Source of the DNA: Caldilineaceae bacterium | Lineage (GTDB): Bacteria > Chloroflexota > Anaerolineae > Caldilineales > Caldilineaceae | Length of the DNA: 43,644 nt | Assembly: GCA_020433455.1 (NCBI GenBank) | Contig: JAGRCP010000015.1 | Coordinates: forward strand, 3,565-47,208 | Direction: 5' to 3' | Shown here: piece by piece, positions 11,649 through 40,472 of the stretch | Position numbering within the stretch: the stretch's first letter is position 1 | Layout of the letters: every line of letters begins with the position of its first letter | Notes under the pieces: model-generated | What the model was told of the DNA's origin: nothing | Database searches by the model: none | Seen by the model: only the letters and a program-made list of their open reading frames with translations | Program-made: the position numbers and the translations under genes

Positions 11649-13004
11649 ATGTCTAACTGCCGATCCCGCCTCGTCCTTCTCGCCTGCTGTTGCATGGCCC
11701 TGCTTGCCGGATGCGCTTCGCAGCCGAGCGAGCGGCCGGCCGCCATTCGCCCGGCCATGTCTACGCCGACCAGTATCGTCGTCTATCCGACGGCGACAGG
11801 CACGTCGGCGGCGCTCCCAGCATCGCCTGAAGGCGACGCCCCGTCCCTCATTCCCACGCCTACGCCGTCCCCCACACCGATCCCGCCGCCCGCCTTCGAC
11901 CCTGCAACCATGACGATTGGGCTGGAGCCGCTTGCCGACGGGTTTGATGCGCCCGTCTTTATCACCCAGGCGGGAGACGGCAGCGGTCGCTTCTTCGTCG
12001 TGGAACAGGGCGGCCTGATTCACATCCTGCGCGACGGTGTAAAAAGTGCGACGCCCTTTCTGGATGTAGCCGGCCTCATCACCGACGCGGGCAGCGAGCA
12101 GGGCTTGCTGGGCCTGATTTTTGATCCGGATTTTGCCGAGAACGGCTACTTCTTCATCAACTATACGGCTCAAGATGACGCAACCGTCATCGCCCGTTAT
12201 CGGGTCGATCCCGCCGCGCCCGATCAGGCCGATGTCGCCTCAGCGTTTGAGATTTTGCGCGTCGAACAGCCGGCGTCCAACCACAACGCGGGGATGCTGG
12301 CTTTCGGGCCGGACGGCTATCTGTATGTGGGTCTGGGAGACGGCGGCGGCGCCAATGATCGCTACGAAAACGGCCAGAATCCCGCTGCGCTGCTGGGCAA
12401 GATGCTGCGCCTGGACGTGACCGGCGACCGAAGCGTTCCCTACCTCATTCCCCCCGACAACCCGTGGCGGGAGGCGAATTGGGATGGTGTGGACGTATTG
12501 GATGAAATTTGGGCGGTGGGGCTGCGCAATCCGTGGCGCTACAGCTTCGACCGCGTGACGGGCGAGCTTTGGATCGGCGACGTAGGGCAGAGCAAGTTCG
12601 AGGAGATCAACCGGGTGAGCGTGCGTTTTCCCGCAGCGATCAACTTCGGCTGGCCCATTATGGAAGGAACCCACTGCTTTCCGGATGACGACACGTGCGA
12701 GGAGGCCGGCCTGACGCTTCCGGTTACGGACTACGCGCACGCGGACGGCAATTGCTCGGTCACGGGCGGATACGTTTACCGGGGCGCAGCCTATCCCGCG
12801 CTCGCGGGCGTCTACTTCTTCGGCGATTATTGCAGCGGCAACATCTGGGCGCTATGGCAGGACGGGGCCGACGCATGGCAGAAGCATATCGTCGTGGAAG
12901 GCGCCGGCAGCATCAGTTCCTTCGGCGAGGACGAGGCCGGCGAGCTGTATGTCATTGATCGGGGCGGCGGTGCAATCTCCCGCATCGTGCTGGATGAATC
13001 ATAG
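11649..13004 (+). CDS. PQQ-type sugar dehydrogenase lipoprotein (GSDH family)
   Basis: A secreted glucose/sorbosone-dehydrogenase-like protein, 451 residues. I place the start at the ATG at 11649 because it gives a lipoprotein signal peptide with lipobox LAGC (C22); the frame is open about 32 codons further up. A Pro/Ser/Thr-rich linker (~30-85) leads to a six-bladed propeller (~90-450) with ITQAGDGSGRFFVVEQGG, SNHNAGMLAFGPDGYLYVGLGDGG, WAVGLRNPWRYSFDRVTG and GDVGQSKFEEIN motifs. The family oxidises sugars with PQQ, but many Chloroflexota members are uncharacterised and PQQ synthesis genes are not in the window, so the substrate and cofactor are open. Confidence 0.88.
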   Translation: MSNCRSRLVLLACCCMALLAGCASQPSERPAAIRPAMSTPTSIVVYPTATGTSAALPASPEGDAPSLIPTPTPSPTPIPPPAFDPATMTIGLEPLADGFDAPVFITQAGDGSGRFFVVEQGGLIHILRDGVKSATPFLDVAGLITDAGSEQGLLGLIFDPDFAENGYFFINYTAQDDATVIARYRVDPAAPDQADVASAFEILRVEQPASNHNAGMLAFGPDGYLYVGLGDGGGANDRYENGQNPAALLGKMLRLDVTGDRSVPYLIPPDNPWREANWDGVDVLDEIWAVGLRNPWRYSFDRVTGELWIGDVGQSKFEEINRVSVRFPAAINFGWPIMEGTHCFPDDDTCEEAGLTLPVTDYAHADGNCSVTGGYVYRGAAYPALAGVYFFGDYCSGNIWALWQDGADAWQKHIVVEGAGSISSFGEDEAGELYVIDRGGGAISRIVLDES

Positions 13005-33301: not shown

Positions 33302-33663
33302 AACTTTTCCTTCTTTTGCGCCCGCAGATAAACGGAACAGCAAGGCGGACTTAATGCTCAAACTAACGAATTCCCTACTCTTGCCATCTTACTATATGTC
33401 AGGACGATTAGCGATTGTCCCGCTGGAGTAGAGACATTTTTGCGTGGGTTCGGCCGGGAGGCTTCGCTTCTCTGCGGGTTAGCCTCTTATCCGGGATGCA
33501 TCTCTTGCCGATTTCTGGTATAGTTTTTGTAATCAATCCTTGCCAAACCTATTGCGTACTATGCTGCGCGCGTCGGCGCCCTGACACGTTACTGTAGCTT
33601 AATATCGTTGTATTCTGGCTCTTCAGGCCTCCCTGCGGTCCGTTTTCTGAAGTGCGCCCGGAT
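33302..33663. other. Gene-free spacer between crcB and the histidine kinase
   Basis: About 360 bp, divergent, AT-richer than the genes. It must hold promoters for crcB and for the nir regulatory unit. I could not find a -35/-10 pair with correct spacing, nor an FNR-like TTGAT-N4-ATCAA site. Confidence 0.4.
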
Positions 33664-35526
33664 ATGAACCGTTCAGCGGAGTTGACCACTGTGCCTATAG
33701 GGCTCCATTCCAAACTGATTCTAACCATGGGCGTCATCTTCGGCGTCGTGCTGCTCGCCATTCTCGGCAGCACATACATGGCGGAAAGCCGCTCCATCAA
33801 ACAGGCCGGCATGATGCAGGCTGAAGCGCTCAACCGCATGGCTTATGAAGCGCTCTACGCATCCATGCGCCAGGGAGGCGGGCGCATGGATAATCTGGCC
33901 GTCATCGAACGGCTGCGCGGGGAACGCTCCTTTAATTCGCTGCGCGTCATCAGCAGCGAGCCGCTTGCCGGAGAGTCCGGCGCCTTGACTGCCGGGCTTC
34001 CCCCGGATGCGCTTGACCGCCGCGCGCTGGACGGCGCGGCAGTTCAGCAGGTTTTGGCTGAAGACGGTGGCCGCGTGATCCGCTTTGCCACGCCATTAAC
34101 GGCCGAAAAGAAGTGCACCCAATGTCATGCGCTCGCGGTGGGTCAGGTCAGCGGCGCGGTCTCGACCACGATATCGCTTGCCTCGCTTGACAGCACGCTT
34201 CGGCAGCGCCGGAATTACCTTTTGCGCATCGTCGTCGGCAGCCTGCTTTTACTGGCCGCGGCGCTCTTCTTTACTGTTCAGTACATTGTGATTCGACCTT
34301 TGCAACGAATTCGCCGCGGGACGGCCGTCATCGCTGACGGCGATCTCGGCTACCGCCTGGACGTGCGTACCGGCGACGAGTTGGAATCACTGGCCGACGG
34401 CATCAACAGTATGGTGAAGCAGCTCGACGCGACCCACGCTGAGATTGTGAAGGAGCAGAGCCGCGTGCTCGCTTCCATCCAAGCTTCCCACGACGCCATC
34501 TGGATCAGCGATGCGGAACGCCGTATCGTGATGATCAATCCAGCGCTGGAACGCCTCACCGGTCTGCGCAAGGAAGAGTTGCTGGGCCGGAACTGCCAGT
34601 ACGTCATGGGCCTGGAGATGCTGAACGGAGCATCCCCCTGTGACATCTATTGCCCGTTTTTACACCCGAATGGAGACAACGGGGCTATCGAAGGCTGCAT
34701 GCCGTCCGCCGCGGGCGGCGACGTCTTTGTCAAGATCAGCTATGGCCGCATCACCGATTCGGACGGTATGCTGACCCAAGTCGTGCATATTGTCCATGAC
34801 CTGACCGAGCGGCGCGAAGTAGAACAGCTTAAGGACGAGTTCGTCTCCATGGTCTCCCACGAGCTGCGCACGCCGCTTCACCATATCAAGGGCTTCGCGA
34901 CTACCTTGCTCCAGACCGACGTGGAGTGGGACGTTGAGACCCAGCGGGATTTTCTGGGAAGCATCAACGACGAAGCTGACCGCCTTTCCCTCTACGTCAA
35001 CAAAATATTGCACCTGTCGCGCTTGGAGGCCGGCGCGCTGCCGCTGGATCGCCATTGGCATTCGGCAATCGATCTGGTCAACGGCGCGTTGGTCAAACCT
35101 ACGGTGTCTGCGGCCAGGGATCGTATCCGGGTTTGCATGGCGGATGATCTCCCACCGCTCTATGTCGACGGGCCGGAGATTGAAACTGTTTTGCTCAATC
35201 TGATCGAGAATGCGCTGAAGTACGGTGGGGCGGATTCGCCCATTACGATTACGGTCGAGTTCCGCCACGGACTCATTGCCTTCTGCGTGGCCGATGAGGG
35301 AGACGGCATTCGCGCCGAAGATCGGGAACAGATATTTGAACGGTTCGCCCGGGTAAATAATCATGTTCAACGCACATCCAGCAGCGGATTGGGCCTTGCC
35401 ATTTGCCGGCGCATCGTGGAGACCCACGGCGGCCGCATTTGGGTCGAGAGCGAGATCGGCGAAGGCAGCCGCTTCTGCTTTACCCTTTCCGCCTACGAAC
35501 GTCAACCAATCGAATTGATCATATGA
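33664..35526 (+). CDS. Membrane histidine kinase with a haem-c-type sensor domain and PAS
   Basis: About 620 residues. One helix at ~15-38, an extracytoplasmic domain (~40-185) that contains CTQCH (~151-155, a haem-c attachment motif, as in DUF3365/Tll0287-like sensors), a second helix (~188-212), HAMP (~213-265), PAS (~285-380) with a Cys-rich insert (RNCQYVMG, SPCDIYCPF, EGCMPS), HisKA (FVSMVSHELRTP, phosphoacceptor H) and HATPase (LLNLIENALKYG, ADEGDGIR, SSGLGLAI). It should sense redox state, oxygen or NO and phosphorylate the next gene's product. Starts GTG 33652, ATG 33664 and GTG 33691 (the last with GGAG 9 nt upstream) are all possible. The stop overlaps the regulator start (ATGA). 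Confidence 0.9.
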   Translation: MNRSAELTTVPIGLHSKLILTMGVIFGVVLLAILGSTYMAESRSIKQAGMMQAEALNRMAYEALYASMRQGGGRMDNLAVIERLRGERSFNSLRVISSEPLAGESGALTAGLPPDALDRRALDGAAVQQVLAEDGGRVIRFATPLTAEKKCTQCHALAVGQVSGAVSTTISLASLDSTLRQRRNYLLRIVVGSLLLLAAALFFTVQYIVIRPLQRIRRGTAVIADGDLGYRLDVRTGDELESLADGINSMVKQLDATHAEIVKEQSRVLASIQASHDAIWISDAERRIVMINPALERLTGLRKEELLGRNCQYVMGLEMLNGASPCDIYCPFLHPNGDNGAIEGCMPSAAGGDVFVKISYGRITDSDGMLTQVVHIVHDLTERREVEQLKDEFVSMVSHELRTPLHHIKGFATTLLQTDVEWDVETQRDFLGSINDEADRLSLYVNKILHLSRLEAGALPLDRHWHSAIDLVNGALVKPTVSAARDRIRVCMADDLPPLYVDGPEIETVLLNLIENALKYGGADSPITITVEFRHGLIAFCVADEGDGIRAEDREQIFERFARVNNHVQRTSSSGLGLAICRRIVETHGGRIWVESEIGEGSRFCFTLSAYERQPIELII

Positions 35527-36212
35527 ACAAGCAGAAGATCCTCGTCGTCGATGACGAGCCCCAAACCCGCAAATATATCGGCGCCAATCTGCTTGCGCGC
35601 GGTTTTTGCGTGCTCAAAGCCGAAGACGGGCGTTCAGCCTTAAAGCTGTTCGAAGAAGAGATAATCGACCTGGTCATTCTCGACATCATGATGCCGGGTA
35701 TGAACGGCTTTGAGGTCTGCGAGGCCATTCGGCGCATTTCCGACACGCCGGTCATCATTCTCAGCGCCAGGGGACAGGAAAAGGATATCGTGCGCGCGCT
35801 CAACATCGGCGCCGACGATTATCTGACCAAACCGTTCGGGGTCGGGGAGCTGTTGGCGCGCGTATGCGCCGTATTGCGACGCACCGCGGCCCAGGGGCCG
35901 GCCGCGCCCCGCCGCCCTTATGAAGTGGACGGCCTCTGTATTGATTTTGCGGCCAAGACCGTTACGCTCAACCGCGAGGCTGTCCCGCTCACGCCCACCG
36001 AATATAACTTGCTGGCCCATCTCGCCGTTAACGCAGGCCGCGTCCTTTCGCATTCGGCGCTGCTTCAGTCGGTCTGGGGGCCCGAGTACGGCGGAGAGAA
36101 CGAATACCTCTGGGCCTATGTCCGCCGACTCCGGCGTAAAATTGAAGCGGACCCGAGCAAACCCCATTACATCCGAACCCAACCCGGTTTCGGCTACTCC
36201 CTGATTGCGTAA
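35523..36212 (+). CDS. OmpR/PhoB-family response regulator
   Basis: 229 residues. The receiver domain (~4-115) has the acidic pocket D10/D11, phosphoacceptor D54 (LVILDIMMPG), the conserved Ser/Thr in IILSARG and K in DYLTKPFG. The C-terminal winged helix (~130-229) ends RRKIEADPSKPHYIRTQPGFGYSLIA, as usual for this family. Its ATG overlaps the kinase stop codon, so the two form a cognate pair. The nirS gene follows 218 bp downstream, with tandem direct repeats between them that fit OmpR-type binding, so nirS is the obvious candidate target. Confidence 0.95.
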   Translation: MNKQKILVVDDEPQTRKYIGANLLARGFCVLKAEDGRSALKLFEEEIIDLVILDIMMPGMNGFEVCEAIRRISDTPVIILSARGQEKDIVRALNIGADDYLTKPFGVGELLARVCAVLRRTAAQGPAAPRRPYEVDGLCIDFAAKTVTLNREAVPLTPTEYNLLAHLAVNAGRVLSHSALLQSVWGPEYGGENEYLWAYVRRLRRKIEADPSKPHYIRTQPGFGYSLIA

Positions 36213-36430: not shown

Positions 36431-38659
36431 ATGCGCAGTTTGCGGATACTATTACCCGTATTCACCCTCACACTCATAATTTTGGCCGGCTGCGGACGCA
36501 ATCATCCGTCGCCCATGCCGTATACGCCCACGCCGGTGCCGGCCCTGTCGGCTGAAGATCTGAAGTCTCCGGCATCAGAGGCTACAGCGACGGAAGACGC
36601 TGCACCGCAGGATAGCGCAGCGACAGACAGTACAGCCGCGGATGCTACGCCGGAGGCGGCGGCGGATAACGCAGCGCAAAGCGCCGCGTCGGAAGTGACC
36701 ATGGAGACCGTTTCCAACGACAATGAGGCGCTTCTGACCGCTTTTGCGACGGGCGGCTGCAGCGCTTGCCACGTCATCCCTGGCATTCCGGGCGCGGTCG
36801 GCGCCATCGGTCCCGATCTTTCCGAAATCGGCGTAACCGCCGCCCAGCGCATCACGGACGCCGCCTATACCGGGTCCGCCACGAATGCGCATGACTATCT
36901 GGTCGAGTCTATCAAAGATCCCATGGCCTATCTTCCGCCTGAATGCCCGGGCGGTCCTTGTCTCCCTGGTCTGATGCCGGCAACCCTGGCCGACACGTTG
37001 AGCGCCGGGCAGATTGATCTGGTCTCCGGGTACCTGGCAGGTTTGCCCGACGGCGCGCTGGCCGCAAGCGACGTTACGGCTGAAGCGGACGCCGCGGCAA
37101 CCACTACCGCGGCAGCGCCTGAACTGAGCGAAGAAGAGTGGGCCGCGGCCACCCAGATATTCTTTGATCGCTGCGCCGGCTGCCACGGCGTACTGCGCAA
37201 CGGCGCCACCGGTCCCGCGCTCACGCCGGACCGCACGCTGGATATGGGCACCATCGCGCTGCAGGCGATCATCTTTAACGGTACGCCCCGGGGAATGCCG
37301 GACTGGGGCCAGCAGGGGCTGTTGACCGAAGAAGAGACGAACATGATGGCCCGCTTCGTCCAGAATACGCCGCCCGAACCGCCGGAGATGTCACTGGAGC
37401 AGATGCGGGATTCCTGGCAGGTCTTCATTCAACCGGAAGATCGCCCTACCGCCCCCGAGCATGATCTGAATATCGACAACTTCTTCTCCGTCACCCTGCG
37501 GGATGCGGGCCAGGTGGCCATCATCGACGGCGATACCAAGGAGATCGTCAACATTGTGGATAGCGGCTATGCCGTTCACATTTCGCGCATGTCAGCCTCG
37601 GGACGCTACATCTACGTCATTGGCCGTGACGGCAAGATCGCGCTGATCGATTTGTGGATGGAAAAGCCGGATAAAGTAGCCCAAGTCCAAACCTGCTATG
37701 ATGCGCGTTCAGTTGACGGCAGCAAATATGTGGGAGAGGAGGGCGACTTTACCGATAAATACGCCATCGCGGGCTGTTATTGGCCGCCCCACTTTGTGAT
37801 CATGGACGGCCAAACGCTGGAGCCCATGAAAATCGTGAGCACCCGCGGCTATACCATTGATACCGGCGAGTACCATCCCGAACCACGCGTTGCCGCCATC
37901 GTCGCGTCCCACTTCAGCCCCAAATGGGTCATCAACGTTAAGGAGACCGGCCAGGTCTGGACGGTAGACTACACCGATCCCACGAACCCTACAATCAAAC
38001 AGATCAATGCCGAGCGCTTCCTGCATGACGGCGGCTGGGATTCAACGGGGCGCTACTTCATTGTGGCGGCTAATGAACGGAACACCATTGCGGTCATCGA
38101 TACCAAGACAGAGGAGCTGGCGGCGCTCGTGCCCGTGGGCACAACGCCCCATCCCGGACGCGGGGCCAACTGGGTCGATCCGGAATACGGACCGGTCTGG
38201 GCGACATCCCATCTGGGCCAGGGCCTGCTCTCCGTTATCGGCGCCGACCCCGAGGGCCATCCTGAATACGCCTGGAAGGTCGTACGTGAGATCGAGCTGG
38301 CCGGCGGCGGCGGCCTCTTTATCAAGACCCACCCCGAGAGCCGATGGGTGTGGATTGACCAGCCGCTGAATCCGGATGAGACCTTACAGCGCAGCGTCTG
38401 CGTGGTAGACAAGCAGAACCCCCAAGGCGAACTCAAGTGCTGGCAGGTTTCAGACTACGGCCGGGTGGTTCACTTCGAGTATAACCAGACGGGTGATGAG
38501 GTCTGGGTCAGCGTATGGGGCGCAGCCGATCAGCCGGGCCAGACGGGTGAAATCGTGATCTACGACGATAAGACGCTGGAAGAAAAGGCGCGTATCCCGG
38601 ATTTAATTACGCCCACCGGCAAATTCAACGTTTACAATACGGTGCATGACATTTATTAA
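36431..38659 (+). CDS. nirS: Cytochrome cd1 nitrite reductase with an extra N-terminal cytochrome c
   Basis: Reduces nitrite to NO in denitrification. 742 residues from the ATG at 36431, which has AAGGAG upstream. A lipoprotein signal (lipobox LAGC, C21) and a low-complexity linker (~25-90) precede an extra cytochrome c domain with C110-SA-C113-H114. The canonical NirS haem-c domain follows (C248-AG-C251-H252, in FFDRCAGCHGVL), then the eight-bladed haem d1 propeller (~325-742). The d1 ligand H383 (YAVHISRM) and both catalytic histidines H532 (FLHDGGWDS) and H574 (PHPGRGAN) are present, 42 residues apart as in Pseudomonas NirS. The C-terminus is GKFNVYNTVHDIY. The extra domain resembles a fused NirC. 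No haem d1 biosynthesis genes are in the window. Confidence 0.96.
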   Translation: MRSLRILLPVFTLTLIILAGCGRNHPSPMPYTPTPVPALSAEDLKSPASEATATEDAAPQDSAATDSTAADATPEAAADNAAQSAASEVTMETVSNDNEALLTAFATGGCSACHVIPGIPGAVGAIGPDLSEIGVTAAQRITDAAYTGSATNAHDYLVESIKDPMAYLPPECPGGPCLPGLMPATLADTLSAGQIDLVSGYLAGLPDGALAASDVTAEADAAATTTAAAPELSEEEWAAATQIFFDRCAGCHGVLRNGATGPALTPDRTLDMGTIALQAIIFNGTPRGMPDWGQQGLLTEEETNMMARFVQNTPPEPPEMSLEQMRDSWQVFIQPEDRPTAPEHDLNIDNFFSVTLRDAGQVAIIDGDTKEIVNIVDSGYAVHISRMSASGRYIYVIGRDGKIALIDLWMEKPDKVAQVQTCYDARSVDGSKYVGEEGDFTDKYAIAGCYWPPHFVIMDGQTLEPMKIVSTRGYTIDTGEYHPEPRVAAIVASHFSPKWVINVKETGQVWTVDYTDPTNPTIKQINAERFLHDGGWDSTGRYFIVAANERNTIAVIDTKTEELAALVPVGTTPHPGRGANWVDPEYGPVWATSHLGQGLLSVIGADPEGHPEYAWKVVREIELAGGGGLFIKTHPESRWVWIDQPLNPDETLQRSVCVVDKQNPQGELKCWQVSDYGRVVHFEYNQTGDEVWVSVWGAADQPGQTGEIVIYDDKTLEEKARIPDLITPTGKFNVYNTVHDIY

Positions 38660-38704: not shown

Positions 38705-38878
38705 ATGGAAGATGAAACTTTGAACGGCAAGGACCAGCTAGACCTGGGGAACAAGACGCTAGGGCAGCGCCTGTTCGACAATGTGTACCTGTTATTGACC
38801 CTGTCGATCCTCATCAGCTTTGTTATTTACAACGTATGGGGGCTAATCAAAACCTTGAACGTACCGCCGGCGCCGTAA
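38705..38878 (+). CDS. 57-residue single-helix membrane protein
   Basis: A short gene with a good AAGGAG site 7 nt before the ATG, 45 bp after nirS. The protein has a charged N-terminal half (MEDETLNGKDQLDLGNKT), one hydrophobic helix (~28-50; VYLLLTLSILISFVIYNVWG) and a short Pro-rich end. It resembles small accessory subunits of membrane respiratory complexes in size and topology, but I do not recognise a family. Position between nirS and an oxidase-type subunit II fragment suggests it belonged to a NO-reductase or oxidase complex or anchors NirS. Confidence 0.72.
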   Translation: MEDETLNGKDQLDLGNKTLGQRLFDNVYLLLTLSILISFVIYNVWGLIKTLNVPPAP

Positions 38879-38888
38879 GTCCGCCAGA

Positions 38889-38922
38889 AGCATAACCCCC
38901 TTCCAAAGGAAGGGGTTATGCT
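38889..38922 (+). promoter_or_regulatory. Hairpin that masks the start of the subunit II fragment
   Basis: Right arm GGAAGGGGTTATGCT (38908-38922) pairs with 38889-38904 (one bulged C) over a 3-nt loop. The right arm contains both the ribosome site (GGAAGGGG) and the ATG at 38918. The hairpin starts 10 bp after the stop of the 57-residue gene, so a ribosome finishing that gene could open it. Confidence 0.65.
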
Positions 38923-39251
38923 GGCACCGCCCGTCACCTGGTGGAAACCATTGAATCGCATGGAGAAAAGCTGGGTGCTCGTCGCTTTTACCTGGTGTCT
39001 GATCCTTACGGTCATGATGCCGCTCTGGTTCTTTATCGGTCGTCAGAATGTGCCGGTCACAACCTACAGAGCGACGCCTGTAGAATGTCAATGCCTTCGT
39101 TGATGAGTATCGGGTGGACACGCTGAACGGCGTTTCTGTTATTGGCGCCGATCGCTCTGTTGCCGGCGATCCCCTGGCTGTTGCGGGGACAGAATCTGGG
39201 ACCCGCGGTCGTCTGCACAAACCGTCGAGATTATGCCTGGTCAGTCATTGA
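38918..39251 (+). pseudogene. Haem-copper oxidase/NO reductase subunit II, truncated and frameshifted
   Basis: The first frame reads MLAPPVTWWKPLNRMEKSW, a transmembrane helix and FFIGRQNVPVTTYRATPVE, closely like the N-terminus of cytochrome oxidase subunit II from Chloroflexota-type oxidases. A +1 shift at about 39083 sends it to a stop at 39103, but the continuation VNAFVDEYRVDTLNGV is readable in the other frame. After ~39150 the similarity ends; the CuA-domain motifs (CxxxC, distal His and Met) are missing and no subunit I follows. So the gene is a decayed remnant of an oxidase or of an oxidase-like NO reductase. It precedes haem A synthase. Confidence 0.7.
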
Positions 39252-39371
39252 TCTTATACTATAATGAGAAATCGGATCGGTTTATTCCGCGCTGATCATG
39301 GACAATTAACCATACGGTTAAGGGGTGCGCCGCACTTCCATGTCCCTGTTTGCGGACTACAGGAATAACTC

Positions 39372-40472
39372 ATGATGACTGAACAAGCAAAGAAGGCAGT
39401 TAGTCGCTGGCTTTACATCCTGTCCGCCATTATTGTCGGACTCGTGATTTTTGGGGGCTACGTACGCCTGACCCGTTCAGGCCTTTCGATTGTGGAATGG
39501 AACGTCATCAGCGGCGTGCTCCCGCCCTTGGGTGAAACCGCCTGGATGGAAGAGTTCGCCAAATATCAGCAGACTCCTGAGTTCATCAAGGTCAATGCAG
39601 AGATGACCCTGGAAGGCTATAAGCGCATTTTCTATCTGGAATACATCCACCGGTTGATCGCCCGCCTTGCGGGGCTGGCAGTGATCCTACCGCTGGGCTG
39701 GTTCCTGATCCGCGGCACGATTCCCTGGCGCAAGTCGGGCATTTACATTGCCATTGCGCTGCTCTTTATTCTCCAGGGCTTCATGGGCTGGTACATGGTC
39801 AGCAGCGGTCTGGTTGATCGTCCGACCGTCTCCCACTATCGCCTCACGATTCACCTGGCGCTGGCGCTGTTTCTGTTGGGGGTGACGCTCTGGACCGCGT
39901 TCAACCTTACCTACGGTTCCGGGGTGCGCAAGCGGAGGAAGGGTTCGTCTTACTGGTTGACCGTCGTGCTCCTGGCCACATTGGTAATCCAGATTCTCTA
40001 CGGCGGCCTGGTGGCGGGGTTAAAGGCGGGGCATGCATCGGATACGTGGCCATTGATGTTCGGTTATCTGATCCCGCCGGGGCTGTTTTCCATGGCCGCG
40101 ACGTGGTGGCACAGCCTGCTTGAAGCGGAGGTTGTGGTCCATTTCACTCACCGCTGGTTCGCCTGGATCGTGTTGATGGCTTCGATAGTCCTCTATTTCG
40201 CCGCCCGACGACGTTATTCAACCACGGTGGACAGAGCCCTGGTCTGGATGATGGCGTTGGTTGCGTTCCAGATTACGCTGGGCGTCAGCGTTATTTGGTT
40301 CCATGTGCCTATCGTCCTGGCCCTGAGCCACCAGGCCACAGCGCTGCTGCTGTTCGTCGTGGCGCTCTTCCTCAACCATCGCATTCTGGGTGAAGCGGCA
40401 AACGTTCCCGTCCGCACGGCAACCGCGGCGGGCGTGCCGGTCCCCCATCACAGACGCCAGGAGGCGCATTAG
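39372..40472 (+). CDS. ctaA: Haem A synthase (COX15/CtaA)
   Basis: A 366-residue membrane enzyme that converts haem O to haem A for aa3-type oxidases. Eight helices are visible, with FGGYVRLTRSGLSIVEW at the first helix, the paired EYIHRLIARL and VVHFTHRWFAW haem-ligand segments and HYRLTIHLALALF plus LALSHQATALLLF. EYIH carries the conserved Glu. The long second extracytoplasmic loop and absence of the loop Cys pair match the COX15-like type rather than the Bacillus type. The start has AGGAAT 8 nt upstream. It survives next to a broken oxidase subunit II gene. Confidence 0.93.
   Translation: MMTEQAKKAVSRWLYILSAIIVGLVIFGGYVRLTRSGLSIVEWNVISGVLPPLGETAWMEEFAKYQQTPEFIKVNAEMTLEGYKRIFYLEYIHRLIARLAGLAVILPLGWFLIRGTIPWRKSGIYIAIALLFILQGFMGWYMVSSGLVDRPTVSHYRLTIHLALALFLLGVTLWTAFNLTYGSGVRKRRKGSSYWLTVVLLATLVIQILYGGLVAGLKAGHASDTWPLMFGYLIPPGLFSMAATWWHSLLEAEVVVHFTHRWFAWIVLMASIVLYFAARRRYSTTVDRALVWMMALVAFQITLGVSVIWFHVPIVLALSHQATALLLFVVALFLNHRILGEAANVPVRTATAAGVPVPHHRRQEAH

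Follow-up and report, generated by a model that had tools for sequence, protein, structure and literature searches.

A putatively lipid-anchored di-haem NirS in Chloroflexota without a known route to haem d1, and a possible dependence on imported cofactor

Introduction

How does a cell whose genome holds no known route to haem d1 come to keep an intact nitrite reductase built around that cofactor? The question is raised by a nirS gene at positions 36,431 to 38,659 (+ strand) of a 43,644-nucleotide stretch of a Caldilineaceae genome (GenBank assembly GCA_020433455.1, contig JAGRCP010000015.1), here called the window as a whole, whose product carries an extra cytochrome c domain (C1) in front of the usual cytochrome c (C2) and d1 domains. 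The nirS gene is a standard marker of denitrification, and the precorrin-2 needed for both siroheme and d1 is made by SUMT. Siroheme is an intermediate of d1 (PMC4063343), the keto groups of d1 are formed by NirF and NirC (PMC13168839), and the cofactor is finished and inserted outside the cytoplasm, in the periplasm (PMC3694632). NirS loaded with dihydro-d1 shows activity in vitro (PMC3694632), and according to that paper and its reference list the apo-enzyme has been reconstituted with d1; a d1-free NirS structure, in an open form, has also been described (PMC7278500). The isolate Wenzhouxiangella AB-CW3 was reported to express NirS without growing on nitrite (PMC7691419).

The C1-C2-NirS of Chloroflexi was reported in 2022 (Schwartz et al., PMC8756737), in a study that called the architecture unique to Chloroflexi, knew of no C2-NirS without C1 in that group, and also noted eNOR, and these proteins were placed in clade 1g of a later NirS tree (PMC10999283). 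The architecture itself is therefore not new; what is new here is the missing d1 pathway, on which, as on the lipid anchor, the main text of PMC8756737 is silent. No report of haem d1 uptake, haem d1 auxotrophy or an orphan NirS was found in the open-access literature.

Results

Architecture of the NirS protein

The nirS gene is a single intact open frame, from an ATG at 36,431 to a TAA at 38,657-38,659, encoding 742 aa. Its first 21 codons (36,431-36,493) specify a lipoprotein signal peptide, MRSLRILLPVFTLTLIILAG, followed by C, in which a pattern check recognizes the lipobox LAGC with Cys21 as the +1 Cys; the lipobox is kept in nearly all Chloroflexota NirS homologues, and lipidation of Cys21 is predicted. 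A disordered linker between the lipobox and C1 provides a tether of about 70 residues. The C1 domain (36,692-37,075, residues ~90-205), delimited by alignments and a predicted structure, carries the motif CSACH at residues 110-114 (36,758-36,772), a conserved distal Met182 (36,974-36,976) that is invariant across aligned relatives, and the paired Cys172/Cys177. It is followed by C2 (37,130-37,370), the usual NirS cytochrome c domain, identified by alignment and by Pfam Cytochrome_CBB3 (residues 236-310, E=3e-13), with CAGCH at residues 248-252 (37,172-37,186) and Met289, and by the d1 beta-propeller (37,469-38,641; Pfam Cytochrom_D1, PF02239, residues 347-737, E=4e-137, 459.5 bits), which Foldseek matches to 1bl9/1nir. 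The window protein shows two marks by which the NirS family is recognized, the eight-bladed d1 propeller and, N-terminal to it, a haem c domain that carries CxxCH and a Met ligand, and phmmer pairs it with the Pseudomonas aeruginosa enzyme at E=5e-204.

In that alignment H383 (codon 37,577-37,579) corresponds to the d1 iron ligand His182 of P. aeruginosa NirS, H532 (38,024-38,026) and H574 (38,150-38,152) to the catalytic His327 and His369, and R357/R399/R577 to Arg156/198/372, which contact the d1 carboxylates (PMC7278500); all six residues are invariant across 30 aligned NirS. The sequence-only reading of this locus, which had proposed a lipobox and a second CxxCH domain added in front of a NirS with all d1-site histidines kept, is confirmed on each of these points. 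An identical C1-C2-d1 arrangement occurs in 24 NirS of the Chloroflexota type, which excludes a chance architecture, and every full-length true NirS found in a set of 400 Chloroflexota genomes belongs to this type and bears a lipobox. Two Chloroflexota NirS (L047, 9,872-12,229, and L018, 277-2,688) are extended further at the N terminus, one by a third CxxCH (Candidatus Desulfolinea nitratireducens), the other by a cupredoxin-like stretch.

Structure prediction for C1 alone gives a class-I cytochrome c (pLDDT 85), with structural matches to a Kuenenia di-haem protein, SorU, SoxX and c551 (VIA rows at Z 6-9, nearly all of them cytochromes c), while Foldseek alone gave no significant match and sequence comparison gave weak matches to the Kuenenia di-haem protein and SoxX. 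The CxxCH, the invariant Met and the predicted class-I fold together make haem binding by C1 likely. The sequence-only reading had suggested that the fused domain replaces NirC or a diffusible donor. Its first half finds no support, since P. aeruginosa NirC (6tp9) aligns with C2, and C1 resembles SoxX, SorU and c551; a tethered donor in place of a diffusible one is still our best guess.

Haem d1 biosynthesis genes

The window's genome (5.25 Mb, 99% complete) contains no known route to haem d1. The same reading had made its interpretation depend on d1 synthesis genes elsewhere in the genome; a PF02239 search matched NirS and neither NirF nor NirN, and no NirDLGH/AhbAB, true NirJ or SUMT was found, so that, with SUMT missing, precorrin-2 and siroheme are out of reach. 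The best radical SAM candidate for NirJ, on contig C142, is AhbD-like (459 bits to TIGR04545) and falls below the NirJ cut-off. This AhbD-like gene adjoins a protoporphyrinogen-oxidase-like gene at the contig end (L009 5,959-8,669), in a genome lacking AhbA/B and SUMT. Across Chloroflexota NirS genomes, two of them single-contig, PF02239 found no second d1 protein, and SUMT was absent from 17 of the 22 Chloroflexota-type NirS genomes and present in five.

The same models performed as they should on controls with ordinary mono-haem NirS (Marinobacter, Halovibrio, Dechloromonas, Brachymonas, Skermanella, Nitrospiria, Methylomirabilis and Rokubacteria), in all of which NirF (~250-400 bits), NirDLGH and NirJ were detected, NirJ of the last three lying below the curated cut-off yet at 400 bits or more. 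None of these proteins was found in any di-haem NirS genome tested. When the NirF test was extended by 48 further genomes, to a total of 88 NirS rows, NirF was missing with all 40 di-haem NirS and present with 41 of 48 mono-haem NirS (Fisher p ~4e-18, kinship ignored). Because only two independent fusions underlie these counts, their strength partly reflects shared ancestry, and an independent-pairs test on the tree, with two origins, has too few for significance.

Phylogeny of di-haem NirS

In a tree of the C2-d1 part, di-haem NirS fall into two well separated clades. Long branches within the Chloroflexota clade lead to one MAG each from Acidimicrobiia and Gemmatimonadales; the gammaproteobacterial clade (support 99) is nested among NirF-bearing mono-haem NirS. 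The latter comprises 14 Gammaproteobacteria (Woeseiaceae, Arenimonas, Lysobacterales and others; loci L069, L070, L072, L076, L079, L082, L085, L086, L090, L091, L100, L109, L115 and L121) with di-haem NirS and without NirF. Between the two clades, the C1 domains fail to align as a single family, which, together with the separation in the tree, points to convergent fusion, with a donor cytochrome added twice, both times where d1 genes are missing. A restriction of this architecture to Chloroflexi therefore fails, given the 14 Gammaproteobacteria and the two MAGs from other groups. Nor is the fusion, which the earlier proposal had seen as an adaptation suited to a single-membrane cell, specific to such cells, as the gammaproteobacterial enzymes were fused independently. 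A mono-haem NirS lacking C1 also occurs in the Chloroflexota MAG L060 (9,698-11,566); this NirS has a lipobox, and the MAG carries the whole eNOR operon and lacks NirF.

TonB-dependent receptors beside nirS

A TonB-dependent receptor gene adjoins nirS in Gram-negative bacteria with the di-haem enzyme, mostly just upstream on the same strand, at 4-120 bp or with slight overlap. Receptors of the PhuR/haem family lie within 4 kb of nirS in 16 of 18 NirF-less diderm loci and in none of 40 NirF-positive loci, some of which have short flanks. Among the NirF-less loci are two with mono-haem NirS (L102 and L124), in which NirF has been lost and such a receptor stands 1.3-3.8 kb away. The nearest solved structure, over the full length, is PhuR (8the), and the L070 and L102 receptors exceed the cut-offs of TIGR01786 and TIGR01785 (TonB haem/haemoglobin receptors). 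Searched genome-wide, 14 of 17 NirF-less diderms contain a member of this receptor subfamily at 620-1049 bits, whereas no score in 31 NirF-positive genomes exceeds 255 bits; the profile was built from eleven of the high scorers, with L076, L082 and L100 scoring high from outside it. The exceptions among the NirF-less diderms are L109, whose receptor is broken (~240 bits), and two without a receptor, L105 and L069, the latter a di-haem locus. No receptor was found beside nirS in the monoderm Acidimicrobiia and Chloroflexota loci, as expected of cells without an outer membrane, and no Omp85 was found in the window's genome.

Two further features of these loci deserve mention. A porin-like outer-membrane protein of the Alginate_exp family adjoins Gram-negative di-haem nirS in L070 (12,239-13,477) and nine other loci, mostly just downstream. 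The Gemmatimonadales TonB receptor near a di-haem nirS (L117, 13,419-16,055) has some 200 extra N-terminal aa; a chelatase-like domain was suspected there from an HGG motif and was dropped, as no family or solved structure matched the extension.

Selection and genomic context

Comparing closely related di-haem NirS pairwise within each of the two clades gives a dN/dS of 0.02-0.09 for the d1 domain; these domains are under strong purifying selection. The absence of d1 genes, being common to 40 of 40 di-haem NirS whose d1 site is under selection, is therefore read as cofactor auxotrophy and not as the mark of a dead enzyme. Several Chloroflexota loci place nirS near genes for Crp/Fnr-type regulators, narHI genes (L056) or an eNOR operon (L053 and L060, in which Gln replaces the oxidase Tyr, HPAQQ), company that suits an enzyme of nitrogen-oxide metabolism, and in 30 loci no conserved biosynthesis or uptake gene was found, the recurring neighbours being Crp/Fnr-type regulators, nar genes and metal P-ATPases only.

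In the window, all on the + strand, nirS is preceded by a sensor histidine kinase (33,652-35,526; Pfam HATPase_c/HisKA/HAMP/PAS, with a weak Tll0287-like/Mcp40H sensor match) bearing an extracytoplasmic c-type haem motif, CTQCH, and by an OmpR/PhoB-type response regulator (35,520-36,212; Pfam Response_reg and Trans_reg_C) that overlaps the kinase gene and ends 219 bp upstream of nirS. From its position and domains the kinase is likely the sensor for the nirS locus, and its CxxCH would make a haem or NO sensor for nirS possible. Downstream lies the remnant of an eNOR-type operon (38,705-39,371), consisting of an intact first gene for a small single-TM protein (38,705-38,878; 62% identical to a small ORF beside nirS in L053) and a frameshifted, truncated pseudogene of the cupredoxin subunit II (38,918-39,248; 58% identity to the intact L053 copy at 11,902-12,420). 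It is followed by ctaA, for a haem A synthase (39,372-40,472; PF02628 E=2.5e-94), in the layout of L053; in intact relatives ctaA follows the eNOR subunits, and here the subunit I gene is gone. The oxidase Tyr is retained in both complete haem-copper subunits I encoded elsewhere in the window's genome. The search thus turned up no NO reductase of the haem-copper superfamily there, and NO would have to escape from the cell or be disposed of in another way.

Discussion

On balance, we favor the reading that the window's NirS is a functional nitrite reductase, supplied with imported d1 and equipped with a fused electron donor, in a cell auxotrophic for haem d1. NirS would be exported and lipidated at Cys21, so as to stand on the external side of the membrane of a monoderm cell on its disordered tether of about 70 residues; the cell itself would attach the c-haems, electrons would pass from the respiratory chain to C1, to the C2 haem c and on to haem d1, the presumed ligand of the propeller, and nitrite would there be reduced to NO. 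The fused cytochrome would stand in for NirM/NirC, both missing together with the nir cluster. Because SUMT, NirDLGH, NirJ, NirF and NirN are all lacking, haem d1 or dihydro-haem d1 would be drawn from neighbouring denitrifiers, and in a cell without an outer membrane it could reach the lipid-anchored apo-enzyme directly, while Gram-negatives that have a di-haem NirS and have lost these genes too would take it through the outer membrane by way of the PhuR-type TonB receptor encoded beside nirS. That d1 is the ligand of this receptor is a prediction. We give roughly even chances to the broader proposition that haem d1 is a shared public cofactor, with at least two lineages carrying a two-haem-c NirS that depend on the d1 of other denitrifiers, through a dedicated TonB receptor (Gram-negatives) or by direct capture on a surface lipoprotein (monoderm Chloroflexota). 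Several points speak against auxotrophy: the usual cargo of PhuR-type receptors is haem b, taken up for its iron, L069 and L105 have no receptor, no dedicated uptake gene can be named in Chloroflexota, and SUMT is retained in 5 of 22 genomes.

That retention of SUMT in some relatives would also suit a cell that makes d1 by an unrecognised pathway, with no detectable enzymes in common with NirE/NirDLGH/NirJ/NirF/NirN, as would the fully conserved d1 site under purifying selection and the existence of AhbD-like and other radical-SAM proteins, for instance beside the protoporphyrinogen-oxidase-like gene in the window's genome. We nevertheless consider such a pathway unlikely, as the window's genome and 17 of 22 of its kind lack SUMT, the 30 loci hold no conserved biosynthetic neighbours, and in the Gram-negative cases a haem receptor is found in their stead. 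It seems just as improbable that the propeller holds a tetrapyrrole other than d1, either haem b or an isobacteriochlorin obtained by scavenging, and serves other chemistry such as that of O2 or NO. Apo-NirS was reportedly rebuilt with other haems in vitro by Hill and Wharton in 1978 (cited in PMC3694632), and the nirS-linked receptor does belong to a haem family, but the d1 carboxylate contacts and both catalytic histidines are invariant, and nar genes, an eNOR operon or a Crp/Fnr-type regulator adjoin several Chloroflexota nirS.

We hold it very improbable that this is simply the published, self-sufficient Chloroflexi C1-C2-NirS, with d1 genes missing only through incomplete assemblies or divergence: the architecture is exactly that of PMC8756737 and MAGs are incomplete, but the absence extends over ~40 genomes, among which G005 and G112 are single-contig and that of Arenimonas malthae comes from an isolate; this rejects an assembly gap, and the same models match the mono-haem controls. 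Decay of NirS along with the adjoining eNOR operon, whose subunit II is broken and subunit I lost, is very unlikely too, with nirS intact, every ligand kept and its relatives under strong purifying selection.

If auxotrophy for haem d1 is the right reading, the NO and N2O output of Chloroflexota, Woeseiaceae and their relatives in sludge and sediment would depend on their neighbours, nirS in such genomes would mark a conditional, community-dependent denitrification, and nirS counts would overstate autonomous denitrifiers, the affected subset being recognisable by two CxxCH before the d1 domain and no NirF. To our knowledge, cross-feeding of haem d1 would then be without precedent, and these bacteria would offer a natural setting in which to study the passage of d1 across membranes and into apo-NirS. 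Should scavenging be wrong, a second d1 route or another NirS cofactor must exist, which would be equally surprising.

Among known systems, the NirS of P. aeruginosa (1nir, 1bl9, 5guw) is ~57-58% identical over C2 and d1, with all haem ligands and catalytic residues kept; it is, however, soluble, has a single haem c and is encoded together with NirM, NirC and all d1-making genes, whereas the window protein is a predicted lipoprotein with an extra C1 and without d1-making genes. The Gram-negative receptors resemble PhuR and the TonB haem receptors (8the; TIGR01785, TIGR01786) in exceeding both cut-offs and aligning with PhuR over its full length, but they sit beside nirS and are confined, among the NirS genomes examined, to those without NirF. 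Closest of all is the Chloroflexi C1-C2-NirS (PMC8756737), which shares the domain order, the phylum, the kept ligands and the lack of a nir operon around the gene; the present analysis extends that description with the independently arisen di-haem NirS of Gammaproteobacteria and with the Chloroflexota MAG L060, whose NirS is mono-haem.
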